Shown: piece after piece, positions 30,429 through 39,274 of the stretch | Position numbering within the stretch: position 1 is the stretch's first letter | How the letters are laid out: each line of letters begins with the position of its first letter | NCBI GenBank assembly: GCA_030682135.1 | Contig: JAUXQT010000005.1 | Span: forward strand, 62,001 to 126,000 | Length of the DNA: 64,000 nt | Reading direction: 5' to 3' | From: Nitrospirota bacterium | GTDB taxonomy: Bacteria; Nitrospirota; Nitrospiria; Nitrospirales; Nitrospiraceae | Made by a program: the position numbers and the translations under genes | Notes under the pieces: model-generated | Seen by the model: the letters and a program-made list of their open reading frames with translations, nothing else | What the model was told of the DNA's origin: nothing | Databases searched by the model: none

Positions 30429-32888
30429 TTATTTCAAGAAGTTCAACAGAGAGCTTTCGAACAGACGGTTCAGCGTGGCCCCAGCCGCTTGAATGGCTTG
30501 CTGCTGGAGCGTCAAGCTTGAAATCGCTTCCACCAGATCCACGTCTTCATTGGTGGACAGAATATTCGCCAGGAAAACCTTCGTTTCATCGAGACTGCCC
30601 TTGCTCGACGCGAGACGATTGGACAGCGCGCCCAGCTCGCCCTGAACGGACGACACCTGATCCAGCGCCACATCGACCGCGGCTAAACCTCGCTGAATGC
30701 CGCCGACGTAATTGCCGTTCAACGCGGCATTCAGACTTTTCACCGCTGCGAACAGGTCGATCGTGGGGCCGCTAAAGGTCTGATTGCCAGGCTGGTTCGT
30801 CTTGACCGTTTGCCCATCGCCGACTTCGATGGTTTGCAGCCCGTCGTCGCCCTGGTATTGCACTCCAGTCTGGATACTGAAACGATCGCCGCTTGCCGGA
30901 GCCGCCGCTCCGTCCCGGAGAGAAAACCGCACCCCTTCTGCCTCGATCGTCCGTCCGGACACATAGGTCTGATTCGAGAGCACGACGCTCCGCGTTTGCG
31001 ACACCGCGAAGACGTCACCATTCCGCGGTCCCGCAGTCCCATCCTGCAGCACGACCCGAAGTCCGTCGAAGTCGATGTTCGCACCGGAAAGGTAGTTCGT
31101 ATAACCGGCATCGTTGTTCAGCGTAGAGGCCGACGCCCCCACGGTCTCCGTCACGGTCGCCGACCCCGAACCCAGAATCTGCGCGGCGGTGGAGCCGGCA
31201 CTACCGAACCGTAGAATCAGTGAATTGGCGTTGCCTGCGGGATTGTTGATGGTGAGCCGTCCGGCGGTCACAGACCCGTAGGCCACCGTGTAGGCCGTCG
31301 TATTGGCGGCATTACGGCTTGCGTTGAGCTTGGAAGCTACTTCCGCCGCCAACTGCGCACCCGTATAACTTCCGGTCGCCAGGGTAATCGTCGTATCGGT
31401 GGTTCCGCCATCGTCGTTGACGATCAGCGTATTGTTCGCCGAGGTGATGTTGAAGATGTTGGTCGCAAGAGTCGTGTTATACACGTTCTGTTGCTTGGAC
31501 ACCCCGGCCAGGCCGGTCGTATCCACATCGCTGATGACCGTCGCCCCAGCCGCAATCGGGCTCAGATCGCGTCCCGACGAGCCGAGAAGCGATCCGGCCG
31601 TCGTCGCTGCGTTCGAATAGAGCAAACTCAGCGCCGTCCCGTTTGCCACATCGTTGGTGATGCTGAACTTGGCAGTCGTCTCGTTAAAACCGACCGTATA
31701 GGTCTCGGGCCCGCTGGCTGCTTCGAGAGCAGTCTTGATCTGACTCGCCAACTCGGCTCCGGTATAGGACCCGGCGGCCAATGTGGCCGTGACCGCTCCC
31801 GATCCTGGATCGAAACGAATCCCGTCGTTCACCCCCGCCGTCACGGTATAAATGTTATTCACGCGAACTTCATAATTGTCCAACGTCACCAGGCTCGAAT
31901 CGAGCACGCCGCTGTCGCTCCTTACCACCCCTCCGGTATTGGTCGTATTCGGCAACACCCCTACGGACGTGGTGACGTTGTAGAGATCGAAGGTGGTCGC
32001 TGCACTGAACTTCACCAGGTAATCGTTGAGCGTCGCCGCGTTCGGATTGAATACCGTGCCTTGTGAGATCACGGCGCTGCCGGTATTCCTCGTGCCGACT
32101 CCGGTCGCCGCACGGATGGCAAAGGCGGAGGCGCCGTTGGTCGTGCTGCCTCCGTTGAAGCCGAGAGCCGTCAGGCTGGTGCCGCCGGTGACTTCGACCG
32201 AGGACGGCAGGCCATTATCCGACGAGGTGATGACGAGATGATCTGTATCGAACGTCACCGTCACACTCTTCCCTGCCGCCAGAAGCGTCGGATCGGTGTT
32301 GATCTTGCGTTGCACGAGTGCGGCCAATCCGGAGCCGGTCACAGAGGCGGTTCCAAGCGCAATCGTGCCAGACGCGGTCCCGTCGACATTCACCACCAGC
32401 GAATCGTTGGTCCCCCCGGTCAGCGCGATGGGCGCGGTAATGGCAACACCCGTCGCCCGCCCATGGCGGCCGGTGCCGGCAAAGATCGATTGTCCCCCGG
32501 CATGTTCGGCGTTCCCCTGCTCTTGGAGCTGAAGGAGCAACTGCTTGACTTCACGTGCGCCAATCGCTCGTTCGGCGGCGCCGTTGGTGCTGTTGGCGAA
32601 CTGCACGGCAAGTTCTTTGACCCTGGCGAGGGCGTTTGTGACGCTGCTTAACGCGCTGTCGGTCAGGTCGAGACGAGTTGTGGCCACACCGAGGTTGCGC
32701 AGATGCTGGTCCGCCTTCGCCATCGAAAACTTGGTCGCCACGATACGGTCGAACCCGTTGGCGTTATCCGACGGTTTCACCACCTTCTTCCCGGTCGAAA
32801 TTTGTTCCTGCGTGGCCAAGGCCTTGGCGCGGGCCCGCTGAATGTTACTGACCAATGTGCCATAGGCCTGTTGTTCGGTGACTCTCAT
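30429..32888 (-). CDS. flgL: Hook-filament junction protein FlgL (HAP3), enlarged
   Basis: An 819-residue FlgL, the second junction protein between hook and filament. The D0/D1 ends are typical (MRVTEQQAYGTLVSNIQRAR and, near the C-terminus, the DLVEAISSLTLQQQAIQAA run). Enteric FlgL is ~315 residues. The excess is three repeated modules, at about 155-247, 347-438 and 483-575, each of the form N-D-x-L/I-x-V-x-x-D-G... with a Y-T/S-G-A-x-L-A helix start. The first closely resembles a module in FlgK. Ends 100 bases before csrA. Confidence 0.92.
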   Translation of the reverse strand: MRVTEQQAYGTLVSNIQRARAKALATQEQISTGKKVVKPSDNANGFDRIVATKFSMAKADQHLRNLGVATTRLDLTDSALSSVTNALARVKELAVQFANSTNGAAERAIGAREVKQLLLQLQEQGNAEHAGGQSIFAGTGRHGRATGVAITAPIALTGGTNDSLVVNVDGTASGTIALGTASVTGSGLAALVQRKINTDPTLLAAGKSVTVTFDTDHLVITSSDNGLPSSVEVTGGTSLTALGFNGGSTTNGASAFAIRAATGVGTRNTGSAVISQGTVFNPNAATLNDYLVKFSAATTFDLYNVTTSVGVLPNTTNTGGVVRSDSGVLDSSLVTLDNYEVRVNNIYTVTAGVNDGIRFDPGSGAVTATLAAGSYTGAELASQIKTALEAASGPETYTVGFNETTAKFSITNDVANGTALSLLYSNAATTAGSLLGSSGRDLSPIAAGATVISDVDTTGLAGVSKQQNVYNTTLATNIFNITSANNTLIVNDDGGTTDTTITLATGSYTGAQLAAEVASKLNASRNAANTTAYTVAYGSVTAGRLTINNPAGNANSLILRFGSAGSTAAQILGSGSATVTETVGASASTLNNDAGYTNYLSGANIDFDGLRVVLQDGTAGPRNGDVFAVSQTRSVVLSNQTYVSGRTIEAEGVRFSLRDGAAAPASGDRFSIQTGVQYQGDDGLQTIEVGDGQTVKTNQPGNQTFSGPTIDLFAAVKSLNAALNGNYVGGIQRGLAAVDVALDQVSSVQGELGALSNRLASSKGSLDETKVFLANILSTNEDVDLVEAISSLTLQQQAIQAAGATLNRLFESSLLNFLK

Positions 32889-35537: not shown

Positions 35538-35840
35538 TTAGAGCGCGGCCTCGGTCAATGCGTGACGAATGATCGCATCCCCGACCTTGCGCCCTGTGAC
35601 GTTGTACGTGCCGGCGTCCACCGCCCGGCTGATCTGCTCGATGCGTGCTTCACGGGCAGGATCCGGCTGGTCGGCCAGAGCCTTAATCCGTTGAATCTCC
35701 TTCGCCTGCTGCGAAATCTGCACGCGATCCTGGCGCCCGTCGCTGGACGGACGACGATTTGCCCCGGCCGGAGCGCCCTCCTGGGTCCCCAGCAGCAACG
35801 TGGCAAGATGATCGGCTCTTCCATGACCTGAGATCTGCAT
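35538..35840 (-). CDS. flgM: Anti-sigma-28 factor FlgM
   Basis: A 100-residue FlgM, which binds FliA and is exported once the hook is finished, freeing σ28. The C-terminal half has the FliA-binding pattern RIEQISRAVDAGTYNVTGRK followed by VGDAIIRHALTE. The N-terminal half is charged and disordered, as usual. A σ28-like promoter lies at the end of the preceding rod gene, so FlgM would be in a negative feedback loop. Confidence 0.93.
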   Translation of the reverse strand: MQISGHGRADHLATLLLGTQEGAPAGANRRPSSDGRQDRVQISQQAKEIQRIKALADQPDPAREARIEQISRAVDAGTYNVTGRKVGDAIIRHALTEAAL

Positions 35841-35861: not shown

Positions 35862-36281
35862 TTAGCCCCGAGTCCATTGAGTGCGCGGTACTGGAATCGG
35901 GGCTTTACTACCTATCGGCTCCTTTATCGGTTGATGAGCCGGAGAACTTGAGGGGAGTGGAGCATTTTTTTCGGTATATTCATGAATCATCTTGGCCAGC
36001 CCTAGCCCGCCAGACTCTGCCGCCAGCCGGCCGATTTCCTGGTCATAAAACGAGTAGAAATAGGCACCGCCTTTATTGTCCAACGCCCCTTTCGGAACAG
36101 TTTCTCTCATGACTTTCAAGAGGTTAGAGATAAAGTAGCTTTCAAATTCATGTGCGGCGCCCTTCAAGGCTGCCAACCCTGCCTCCCGATCTTCCCCTAC
36201 AAGCACAGCAGGCTTCTGCAGACTCAACTGCGCGTCAGCCGTATGCCTAATGGAGCTGATTCCGGTAAGGTCGTGGTTCAA
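35862..36281 (-). CDS. FlgJ-type rod-binding protein (no muramidase domain)
   Basis: A 139-residue protein equal to the N-terminal rod-binding half of FlgJ (ALKGAAHEFESYFISNLLKVM, KGGAYFYSFYDQEIGRLAAE). The C-terminal peptidoglycan hydrolase of enteric FlgJ is absent, as in many non-enteric bacteria. It would cap rod assembly in the periplasm, so wall opening needs another enzyme. The 47-base gap upstream and parts of this gene are notably AT-richer than its neighbours. The flgM promoter is inside its 3' end. Confidence 0.87.
   Translation of the reverse strand: MNHDLTGISSIRHTADAQLSLQKPAVLVGEDREAGLAALKGAAHEFESYFISNLLKVMRETVPKGALDNKGGAYFYSFYDQEIGRLAAESGGLGLAKMIHEYTEKNAPLPSSSPAHQPIKEPIGSKAPIPVPRTQWTRG
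35924..35951 (-). promoter_or_regulatory. σ28-like promoter of flgM
   Basis: TCAAG (35951-35947), 15-base spacer, ACCGATAA (35931-35924). A second -10-like GCCGATAG lies just downstream (35919-35912) without a good -35. The site is inside the coding end of the rod-binding gene, 85-110 bases before flgM. Confidence 0.72.
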
Positions 36282-36328: not shown

Positions 36329-37468
36329 CTAAATTATATCAAGATTAGCCTGAAGTGCTCCGGCCGAACGGAGTGCCGATAAAATAGCCACCAAGTCCCT
36401 GGGAGTCACCCCGACTGCGTTCAGCGCCCGTACCACCTCTCCGAGTGTCACCGTCTCATCAACCACCACCAACCGAGACTCCTGCTCTTTTACTTCCGTC
36501 TGAACATCGGGAGTCACCGTCGTCTGTCCAGTTGTGGACCCAATTAACGGAGCGGGAGGCTGCGACACATTGAGCGTATTCTTCACAGAGATCGTGAGAT
36601 TGCCATGGGAGATGGCACAGGTGGAGATCCGCACATGCTCGCCAAGCACCACCGTGCCGGTTCGTTCGTTCACCACCACTCTGGCCGACAAATCGACCGC
36701 CACATCCAACCCTTCGATCGTGGCGATATACTCCACCACTCGGCCTCGAAAATTTGCCGGGATGGTCGCCCGGACCAGGCCGGCATTAACGGCAGTGGCA
36801 CTCCCCTTGCCGAAGACGCCATCGATCGCCTCGGTCGTCCTGATCGCCGTCGTAAAATCAGGCTGACGCAGGAGCACTGACACGGTTTCCCAGGATTCCA
36901 CGTCGACCACCGCTTCCTTCTCGATGATGGCTCCACCAGGCACCATTCCGGCAGATTGATGGTTCTTGGTCACGGTCGAACCGCCGCCGCCGCCAGTCCC
37001 ACCCAAAAACCCTCCGATCGACACCGGCCCTTGCGCCACGGCATAGACTTGCTGGTTCGCCGCTTTCAGCGGAGTGAGCAACAACGTGCCGCCCTGCAGG
37101 CTCTTCGCATTGGCCATCGAGGACACCAGCACGTCGATCGTCAGTCCGGGCTTGGCAAAGGGCGGCAATTTGGCCGTCACCATGACCGACGCGATATTGC
37201 GCGTCAGCAATTGGATCGGATCGATCACGAGGTTCACGCCCATCTTATTCAACATCGACATCATGGCCTGGATCGTGAACTGACCGCCGATGACCTGATC
37301 GCCGGTACGATCCAGTCCGACTACGAGCCCGTACCCGATCAACTGGTTCTCACGGACCCCTTCAAACGAACCGACGTCTTTAATCCGGACGGCCCAAGCC
37401 GGCGTCGCCACGAGCAGCACAGCGAGCAGTGAGGCACCGATAGAGCGTTTCGTCATCATCATGGTCAT
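36329..37468 (-). CDS. flgI: Flagellar P-ring protein FlgI
   Basis: A 379-residue FlgI with a Sec signal peptide (SIGASLLAVLLVATPAWA), then the family start RIKDVGSFEGVRENQLIGYG and LVVGLDRTGDQ. It forms the periplasmic ring around the rod at the peptidoglycan layer. The motifs DVLVSSMANAKSLQGGTLLLTPL and the C-terminal LGEVVRALNAVGVTPRDLVAI are conserved. Several Met codons lie at the start; AGGA upstream best fits Met3 (37462). Length is normal. Confidence 0.95.
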   Translation of the reverse strand: MTMMMTKRSIGASLLAVLLVATPAWAVRIKDVGSFEGVRENQLIGYGLVVGLDRTGDQVIGGQFTIQAMMSMLNKMGVNLVIDPIQLLTRNIASVMVTAKLPPFAKPGLTIDVLVSSMANAKSLQGGTLLLTPLKAANQQVYAVAQGPVSIGGFLGGTGGGGGSTVTKNHQSAGMVPGGAIIEKEAVVDVESWETVSVLLRQPDFTTAIRTTEAIDGVFGKGSATAVNAGLVRATIPANFRGRVVEYIATIEGLDVAVDLSARVVVNERTGTVVLGEHVRISTCAISHGNLTISVKNTLNVSQPPAPLIGSTTGQTTVTPDVQTEVKEQESRLVVVDETVTLGEVVRALNAVGVTPRDLVAILSALRSAGALQANLDII

Positions 37469-37488: not shown

Positions 37489-37752
37489 TCAATGGTAGCG
37501 CCGCAGCAGATATTCCCGGCTCAAAAATATTCTCGCCAACCAACCTGGCTCTTCGATTTCGTCATCGAGGTCCAACGCCCCTCCGTAGGGATCGATGCCG
37601 ATCTTTGCCGAATGCTGATGAAGCGCCGGAGGGTCGAGATCGGCCCGGCGAACGACCCCGCTGAGGACCATCATCTTCAGATCGTCTGTTACGGCCTGGC
37701 GATGCCGTTGCTCCCACGAAATGCCCGCCGTCCGCCGTACGGTGCGTCCCAT
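37489..37752 (-). CDS. Orphan FlgH C-terminal-domain-like protein
   Basis: An 87-residue protein between flgH and flgI, with no signal peptide or lipobox. Its residues ~27-75 line up with the C-terminus of the neighbouring FlgH: LKMMVLSGVVRRADLD against TQLMSISGIVRRVDVD, SAKIGI against IADAKIEY, and EEPGWLARIF against QRPGWLVRVL. ATG 37752 has GGAGG eight bases upstream; a GTG nine bases earlier overlaps that site. It is a paralogous fragment, an L-ring-like partner domain, or a decaying duplicate. The good ribosome site and position argue for expression. Confidence 0.7.
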   Translation of the reverse strand: MGRTVRRTAGISWEQRHRQAVTDDLKMMVLSGVVRRADLDPPALHQHSAKIGIDPYGGALDLDDEIEEPGWLARIFLSREYLLRRYH

Positions 37753-37770
37753 GATCCTCACCTCCGTGAC

Positions 37771-38478
37771 TCAGAATGGATAGACCCAATCCAGCACCCG
37801 AACCAGCCAGCCTGGCCGCTGCACGTCGTCCACGACACCCAAGCCTGAATATTCGATCTTCGCGTCGGCAATGGCGCTCGACAGCACGGTGTTCTTCGTA
37901 TCGACATCCACGCGCCGGACGATGCCGCTGATCGACATCAGCTGCGTCTCGCTGTTGACGGTGACCTCTCTCTTGCCTTCGATGCGGAGATCCCCGTTCG
38001 GCAGGACCTCGGTCACAACCGTGGAAATCGTCCCGGTCAAGGTATCGGCGCGGCTGGTTGCTCCCTTCCCTCCAAACTTGCTCTTGGCGCTGGCATCGAC
38101 CCCCAGTCCCCGCATCGTCTCACCGCCGAGCCGGACTCCGGGGATGCCGATGTAACCGATGCCGGACCCGCTTAACGAATTATTCAACGTCGACTCCCGC
38201 TCCGCCTTCGTGTCGGCAGACTTGGAGCCCGCATGTTTTTCCACAATCTTGATGGTCAGAATATCGCCAACCCTCATGGCCCGCAGGTCTTCGTACAGGT
38301 ACGCGCGCCCATTCTCCTCCTGCCAGAGCGAACCGACGGTTTTGGGCGGAGGCAACGCAGGCACCGTCAGCTTCTTGGCGACATTGGGCGAATTGTGCCA
38401 GTAGCACCCGACATTGACGAGCGCAAGACTCAGCGCCAGCACCAGCCGGACCGACGTATGACCGCGATTAATACTCAA
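37771..38478 (-). CDS. flgH: Flagellar L-ring lipoprotein FlgH
   Basis: A ~235-residue FlgH, the outer-membrane L-ring. The N-terminus has a lipoprotein signal (VLALSLALVNVGC, lipobox Cys), then GSLWQEENGRAYLYEDLRAM, VGDILTIKIVEKH and the C-terminal LMSISGIVRRVDVD ... QRPGWLVRV pattern. I prefer a TTG start at 38478 (overlapping flgA by 11 bases) because it gives a normal-length signal peptide; an upstream ATG-type frame to 38541 would add 21 residues ahead of it. FlgA is needed for P-ring and FlgH for L-ring. Confidence 0.93.
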   Translation of the reverse strand: MSINRGHTSVRLVLALSLALVNVGCYWHNSPNVAKKLTVPALPPPKTVGSLWQEENGRAYLYEDLRAMRVGDILTIKIVEKHAGSKSADTKAERESTLNNSLSGSGIGYIGIPGVRLGGETMRGLGVDASAKSKFGGKGATSRADTLTGTISTVVTEVLPNGDLRIEGKREVTVNSETQLMSISGIVRRVDVDTKNTVLSSAIADAKIEYSGLGVVDDVQRPGWLVRVLDWVYPF

Positions 38479-39274
38479 CGCGTACGACTCCCGGTGCCAC
38501 GATCTTTGCACGCAACTCTTTGCCTGAATCGAGGTTCGCAACCGTAATGGACTGGCCGAGCTCTCCGCTCGATTTCGTCACACCGGACGCTTGGATCGAG
38601 AGCCCTCCATGCCTGGCCTCAATCGCCACACGATCCCCTTTGTGAACAGCGTAGGGCTTCTTAATCATCGCCAGACGAATCGGCATGTTGGCCTGCAGTG
38701 CGCGGGCTGCGCTTTTCCCGATGACATCATTGATGTTGGTCGCCAACTGATGGTTCAACTCTCGCAGTTTGATGCGCTGGATTGTGAGGTCTTCCGCTTC
38801 GATCAGATCCTCGGCCTTGATCACCCTGACCGGCACGACCGCATCGACGGAGGCGCCGATGTCGGCCGTGGCATCGATGGTCTGCCAAGGCCTGCCATTC
38901 GCATTGATCTGGACATGAAAGGTCCGGCGTCCAAGGCCCTCGTCCAATCCATGTGGGGTAATCATCAAACCCATGCTGCCAGGCGGCACATCGATCGCGT
39001 CTTGAGGGTCCACCATCGTGGCAGAGACCGCTCGCACCTGCCCCGCCATCTCCTGTTCGAGGAAACGCAGAATGCTTCGCTGAATATCGTTGGGATGCAG
39101 CTGATGCATGGCCGGGGCGAGAGCAGGAACCAGCTTGATCGCGCGGAGTTCAGGCCCTTGCGCCACCCGCATGGCTACGGGCACTCGATCGGCAGAGGCC
39201 GCATTTGCGGAGCAGGGCCCGGCGAGGATACCGGTCAGCAGCACGAAGGGCAGATACAGAGGTCGTGGTGTCAT
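38468..39274 (-). CDS. flgA: P-ring assembly chaperone FlgA
   Basis: A 268-residue FlgA, the periplasmic chaperone for FlgI polymerisation. Sec signal peptide (YLPFVLLTGILAGPCSANA), then a mixed domain and a C-terminal SAF domain with VRVIKAEDLIEAEDLTIQRI and the pattern KPYAVHKGDRVAIEARHGG. The last residues (GKELRAKIVAPGVVRVEY) match the family end. It is between flgG and flgH, the order known from many non-enteric flg operons. Confidence 0.92.
   Translation of the reverse strand: MTPRPLYLPFVLLTGILAGPCSANAASADRVPVAMRVAQGPELRAIKLVPALAPAMHQLHPNDIQRSILRFLEQEMAGQVRAVSATMVDPQDAIDVPPGSMGLMITPHGLDEGLGRRTFHVQINANGRPWQTIDATADIGASVDAVVPVRVIKAEDLIEAEDLTIQRIKLRELNHQLATNINDVIGKSAARALQANMPIRLAMIKKPYAVHKGDRVAIEARHGGLSIQASGVTKSSGELGQSITVANLDSGKELRAKIVAPGVVRVEY

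Follow-up and report, generated by a model that had tools for sequence, protein, structure and literature searches.

What does a small open reading frame do between flgH and flgI, at a junction that is among the most conserved stretches of flagellar gene clusters? The question arises in a 64,000-nucleotide stretch of a Nitrospirota genome, referred to here as the window, from the Nitrospiraceae, a family that includes the main nitrite-oxidising bacteria. An ORF of 87 residues (37489..37752, minus strand) fills the slot between the L-ring gene flgH (37771..38541, minus; PF02107, 196 bits; the ORF being listed with its furthest start) and the P-ring gene flgI (36329..37468, minus; PF02119, 423 bits), the product of which has its own signal peptide. 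The gene order is flgG-flgA-flgH-slot-flgI-flgJ-flgM, where flgG comes from the list of ORFs and the other named genes from Pfam, including the P-ring chaperone gene flgA (38468..39274, minus; PF13144), a flgJ-like gene for a rod-binding protein (35862..36281, minus; PF10135) and flgM, encoding anti-sigma-28 (35538..35840, minus; PF04316). The flgJ-like ORF spans 139 residues, with the rod-binding domain alone in Pfam, and further along the window, directly downstream of a flgK-like gene, lies an ORF of 819 residues (30429-32888, minus) that is long for a hook-filament junction protein. An antisense ORF (37492-37848, plus) runs opposite the slot gene. The slot gene starts with ATG, 8 nt beyond a Shine-Dalgarno GGAGG (37761..37765 in plus-strand numbering, on the minus strand), and is separated by 18 nt from the flgH stop and by 20 nt from the flgI start, so that both its own ribosome-binding site and the tight operon position described in the sequence-only reading of this DNA hold. 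A search of the literature found no description of a gene in the flgH-flgI slot of Nitrospira.

One proposal for this ORF was that of a decaying duplicate, i.e. a functionless partial copy of flgH, and decay does occur sporadically: one genome (G018, locus L025) has an internal deletion with a remnant, a second (G024, L019) shows a C-terminal frameshift running into flgI, and a third (G003, L011) carries an early C-terminal stop. Against this proposal, the gene occupies this slot throughout the genus and in further genera of Nitrospiraceae, with orthologues in at least 108 of 127 flgH-positive genomes of the family, a count taken from match lists, part of the other 19 having been looked at only cursorily. 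The median dN/dS in six close genomes is 0.079 for the slot gene, close to that of flgH (0.085; flgI 0.016), and the same DNA read in frames +1 and +2 gives pN/pS values of 1.1 and 2.3. In addition, an SD-like site precedes the start in 32 of 37 orthologues, versus 17% of random positions, and two blocks of the protein are conserved. The check proposed in the sequence-only reading, conservation together with dN/dS, speaks for a distinct gene. Selection and the retained SD sites thus exclude a decaying duplicate as a general explanation despite the occasional decay; the proposal is refuted for most genomes, and as an account of the family it is hardly tenable. As far as such comparisons of sequence go, the slot ORF is a real gene under purifying selection, a selected flagellar part rather than decaying scrap. 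Readthrough of the flgH stop codon was considered as a source of the protein and rejected, the slot ORF lying in the flgH frame in some genomes and in other frames in most.

In a tree of FlgH and FlgI (79 rows), the slot gene was gained a single time within Nitrospiraceae, later than the branching of the G190, G071 and G034 lineages, with six changes among the separate, fused and absent states. These three genomes, together with G033 and G018 (the deletion remnant), are flgH-positive without an intact slot gene, and the gene is therefore not essential for flagella everywhere. Only two slot-positive genomes are missing from the list of flgH genomes, one in which the contig begins within the slot gene (G009) and one lying outside the flgH sample, with flgH present at its locus (G156). 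A spread of the family beyond Nitrospiraceae was rejected, as the outside matches among 396 genomes of the phylum are weak (E 6e-5 to 6e-4) and those listed resemble FlgH itself. Two genomes have the same repeat-like DNA (CAGGATGCTGAAAATGTCCGCCAGC...) inserted just after flgH: in one (G026, L012), about 240 nt separate flgH from the slot gene, which retains the GGAGG before its ATG; in the other (G016, L028), the DNA after flgH is other DNA, and slot gene and flgI were not found behind the insertion.

When considered by its anatomy, the slot protein consists of a basic N-terminus, a first conserved block with a predicted helix, a free linker and a second block. Block 1 (residues 23-42, DDLKMMVLSGVVRRADLDPP; 37627..37686, minus) has a mean pairwise identity of 66% in the slot family and the consensus LxMMVxSGVVRRADxxPP; block 2 (residues 68-79, EPGWLARIFLSR; 37516..37551, minus) has 54% and the consensus EQGWLxR, and resembles PGWLVRVL of FlgH. 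Conservation is confined to these two short blocks, with mean identities of 14% in the linker, 27% in the N-terminus and 13% in the tail. AlphaFold2 predicts helices at residues 13-31 and 71-86 with a disordered linker (mean pLDDT 62); models built with 19 and with 38 sequences retain the helix at 13-31 (block means 81-87 pLDDT), the C-terminal helix being weaker. A Foldseek search of the first model against the PDB gave no match. Searches against known families were equally bare: beyond a weak FlgH match there was nothing in Pfam, nothing of weight in NCBIfam or PHROGs, and nothing in the PDB by sequence or fold.

The similarity of the ORF to the end of the adjacent FlgH, on which the sequence-only reading was built, is borne out. 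The BLASTP alignment of the two is ungapped over 63 residues, 30% of them identical, and scores 39 bits (E 1e-9 for this one comparison), and a slot profile run against the whole 3.7 Mb genome finds, besides the slot gene, only the FlgH C-terminus (E 2.7e-6 and 8.9e-6, at cut-offs of E <= 0.01 or 0.001). Profile-profile comparison by HHalign gives a probability of 95% and P 1.7e-8, whereas the controls (reversed FlgH, FlgI, reversed FlgI and the reversed slot profile) give P 0.13-0.73; the resemblance thus exceeds chance. It sits in two blocks of about 18 and 8 residues, SGVVRRxD[LV]D and GWLxR[IV], which are colinear and nearly equally spaced in both proteins, with the genes adjacent and the intervening linker unmatched. 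Nevertheless, the slot protein is not a member of the FlgH family. It scores 13 bits against PF02107, below the gathering score of 27 bits, and only three of 38 slot proteins match this profile even at E <= 1; it has no lipoprotein signal and about one third of the length of FlgH, and the FlgH core segment NTVxSSxIADAxIxYxG is absent, the free linker standing in its place. Of the partial paralogue originally suggested, what stands are the motifs like those of the FlgH C-terminus, and what appears to fall is a truncated FlgH fold, since two helices and a disordered linker are predicted instead.

The best reading of this resemblance, from position and sequence, is that a part of flgH, its 3' end, was duplicated long ago, mimicry being less likely. 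Two observations keep mimicry in play: the predicted fold differs, and the slot profile scores almost equally against FlgH from f3, the neighbouring family (24-25 bits), and from Nitrospiraceae (24-30 bits), so that the slot protein shows no special closeness to the latter. Moreover, block 1 is predicted helical and the aligned stretch of FlgH is taken as strand, and homology by duplication is thus not proven. It was also suggested that the protein could be a chaperone or inhibitor of FlgH. As such, it would imitate the FlgH C-terminus in the cytoplasm and, by binding pre-FlgH, block its self-assembly before Sec export. Both slot blocks do coincide with C-terminal stretches of FlgH, the gene follows flgH directly and its product has no signal peptide; yet the protein is predicted helical rather than strand, the stretch that joins the blocks in FlgH has no counterpart, and the in-frame fusions found in relatives join FlgI and never FlgH among the fusions seen. 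This explanation is, in our estimate, unlikely.

Where the protein acts is narrowed by its N-terminus. The lack of a signal peptide seen in the window extends to all 38 members examined, none of which has a signal-peptide-like hydrophobic stretch (best 19-residue Kyte-Doolittle mean 1.33, median 0.58), and with no member carrying its own N-terminal signal peptide, a periplasmic role appears unlikely. A membrane-binding amphipathic helix was also considered: the helical moments of both blocks are below shuffled values, neither block is amphipathic, and membrane binding through a helix is thus not supported. In most slot proteins the pI is about 11-12, i.e. strongly basic; for the protein of the window it is 6.9.

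Block 1 is also found outside the flagellar operon. A search with the block-1 profile detected a further small protein, here called family B, in most genomes tested; it has about 90-110 residues, and its block 1 reads ALxMLxxSGVVRPxHVELRY. In the window's own genome, though outside the window, family B is encoded at G000:C33:169167-169508 (L198:4668-5009, plus; MHILSTQ...ALHMLALSGVVRPSHVELRY). It comes after a conserved zinc-ribbon ORF (L198:4254-4628), with a divergent PilZ gene (L198:3556-3936) in the vicinity. Of 26 family-B loci examined, 23 have the zinc-ribbon gene ahead of the family-B gene; a PilZ match was recorded in 8. HHalign relates the slot protein to family B over 29 columns (94%, P 1.5e-7), but family B hardly at all to FlgH (9%, P 0.004). 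Family B differs from the slot protein in lacking block 2, in its place behind the zinc-ribbon gene and in standing apart from the flagellar operon; as genomes that lack flgH also carry it (G001, G066 and G032 are examples), it is not a flagellar protein, and its co-occurrence with the slot gene is not strict. Other carriers of the block were seen as well. In genus g2, three loci (L162, L207, L210) encode block-1 proteins of about 70 residues without a zinc-ribbon neighbour, at least one of the three genomes (G032) having no flgH match, and a possible third carrier is a 220-residue protein of G026 (L214:4199-4858, minus) with MAFKMMMQSGVLRPGDIAIRRG at its N-terminus and a coiled-coil-like region, the match being weak (E 6e-4).

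A shared block 1 allows the slot protein to be thought of as a small, mostly very basic regulator, in which this block would dock onto a factor of transcription, translation or c-di-GMP signalling. The basic composition of most members and the zinc-ribbon and PilZ neighbours of family B speak for such a role. On the other side, family-profile searches gave no match to a DNA- or RNA-binding family, the FlgM profile (PF04316) does not match the slot protein (the true flgM is the gene at 35538-35840), the near-neutral pI of the window's own protein does not fit, and neither block 2 nor the in-frame fusion to FlgI is accounted for. We regard a regulator as rather unlikely.

These fusions bring the argument closest to a function. 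In at least three lineages, and at about 33 loci seen, the slot ORF runs in frame into flgI, adding some 80 residues or more before the FlgI signal peptide. In genus g6, it reads without a stop into flgI at ten loci; in all 22 g26 genomes examined and one g22 genome, a presequence of about 80 residues, of the pattern MTRPRKQQRAMITQCFRLMLSSGVLRPASMDP...W[FL]RR, lies before the signal peptide of FlgI; and g18 provides a more divergent case. In the g26 set, an ACAGGAG site lies mostly at the upstream ATG of the fused FlgI; of the internal start codons close to the signal peptide, none has an SD except in two genomes. The extension has a pN/pS of 0.19 versus 0.08 for mature FlgI, and the presequence is under purifying selection where assessed. 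On the FlgH and FlgI tree, the fused state needs three changes, of which well supported branches force two. Genome G149 has two flgH-flgI loci (L071 and L092) that differ in this respect: at one, the slot gene stands alone, and at the other, the slot domain is part of the FlgI reading frame. According to the known topology of signal peptides, a domain ahead of a Sec signal peptide is expected on the cytoplasmic side, and the fused slot domain should thus stay there.

The order of events could also be the reverse, with an ancestral fusion, a long signal peptide slowing or timing FlgI export, that was later split in some genera. The conserved presequence of about 80 residues in every sampled g26 genome and the position of block 2 where the n-region of the signal peptide starts (W[FL]RR) are in keeping with this. 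The separate form, however, prevails in most sampled lineages, the deepest slot-bearing pair comprises one separate and one fused form, and a stand-alone protein is unable to serve as a signal peptide, which together make an ancestral presequence quite improbable.

The explanation that we favour, with a confidence just short of even, is that of a flagellar accessory specific to Nitrospiraceae, a cytoplasmic adaptor with two motifs that acts while FlgI, and perhaps FlgH, is made and exported. From what is observed, i.e. the gene and its selection, the motifs, the missing signal peptide, the fusions and the shared block 1, we infer the mechanism and the partner. The protein would be a small, bivalent adaptor of the cytoplasm that docks through its two blocks: block 1 would bind a cytoplasmic partner used by the slot family and family B alike, and block 2, similar to the FlgH C-terminus, may act at the Sec step in the vicinity of pre-FlgI or pre-FlgH, the adaptor thereby holding or timing ring precursors ahead of export. 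In the fused genera, the element would work in cis, as an extended presequence of FlgI, left in the cytoplasm upon cleavage by signal peptidase. That this cis form has appeared on FlgI repeatedly is the best clue to a role of the slot protein during the synthesis or export of FlgI. A bolder version, possible though on the doubtful side, sees a P-ring export-control element in two interchangeable forms, a separate protein of 90 residues or a FlgI presequence of about 80, whose docking motif, shared with an unrelated family, would tie ring assembly to a cellular factor known from Nitrospiraceae alone. To our knowledge, no cytoplasmic factor dedicated to the L and P rings has been reported. A slot protein that has repeatedly turned into a FlgI presequence may hence offer a direct handle on the control of ring precursors before Sec export, and it marks out a previously undescribed small-protein motif family in Nitrospiraceae.

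When set beside known systems, the fused form resembles the ESPR (extended signal peptide region) of autotransporters, in which the Sec signal peptide is preceded by a conserved extension with positive charge (PMC2805444). Both are placed directly N-terminal to an ordinary Sec signal peptide, and canonical FlgI (PF02119), by comparison, starts directly with a short signal peptide, the slot being elsewhere a separate gene. The likeness is limited to the fused genera, as the window has a separate slot gene and flgI. Unlike an ESPR, the extension is much longer and is followed by FlgI, with no passenger or barrel of an autotransporter (type V secretion), and in most genera the slot element is a protein of its own. 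On the rings themselves, the available portion of the report on the Salmonella LP-ring structure names FlgH and FlgI as their components and describes no cytoplasmic partner (PMC8298488). Like the slot protein, the periplasmic flagellar chaperones FlhE and FlgA are small and tied to L/P-ring assembly; in contrast to it, they act in the periplasm, the slot protein having no signal peptide of its own, a distinction drawn from their description. FlhE, which the accessible part of its report presents as a ring-assembly chaperone working in the periplasm (PMC11247099), is on that account the nearest functional relative of the slot protein.
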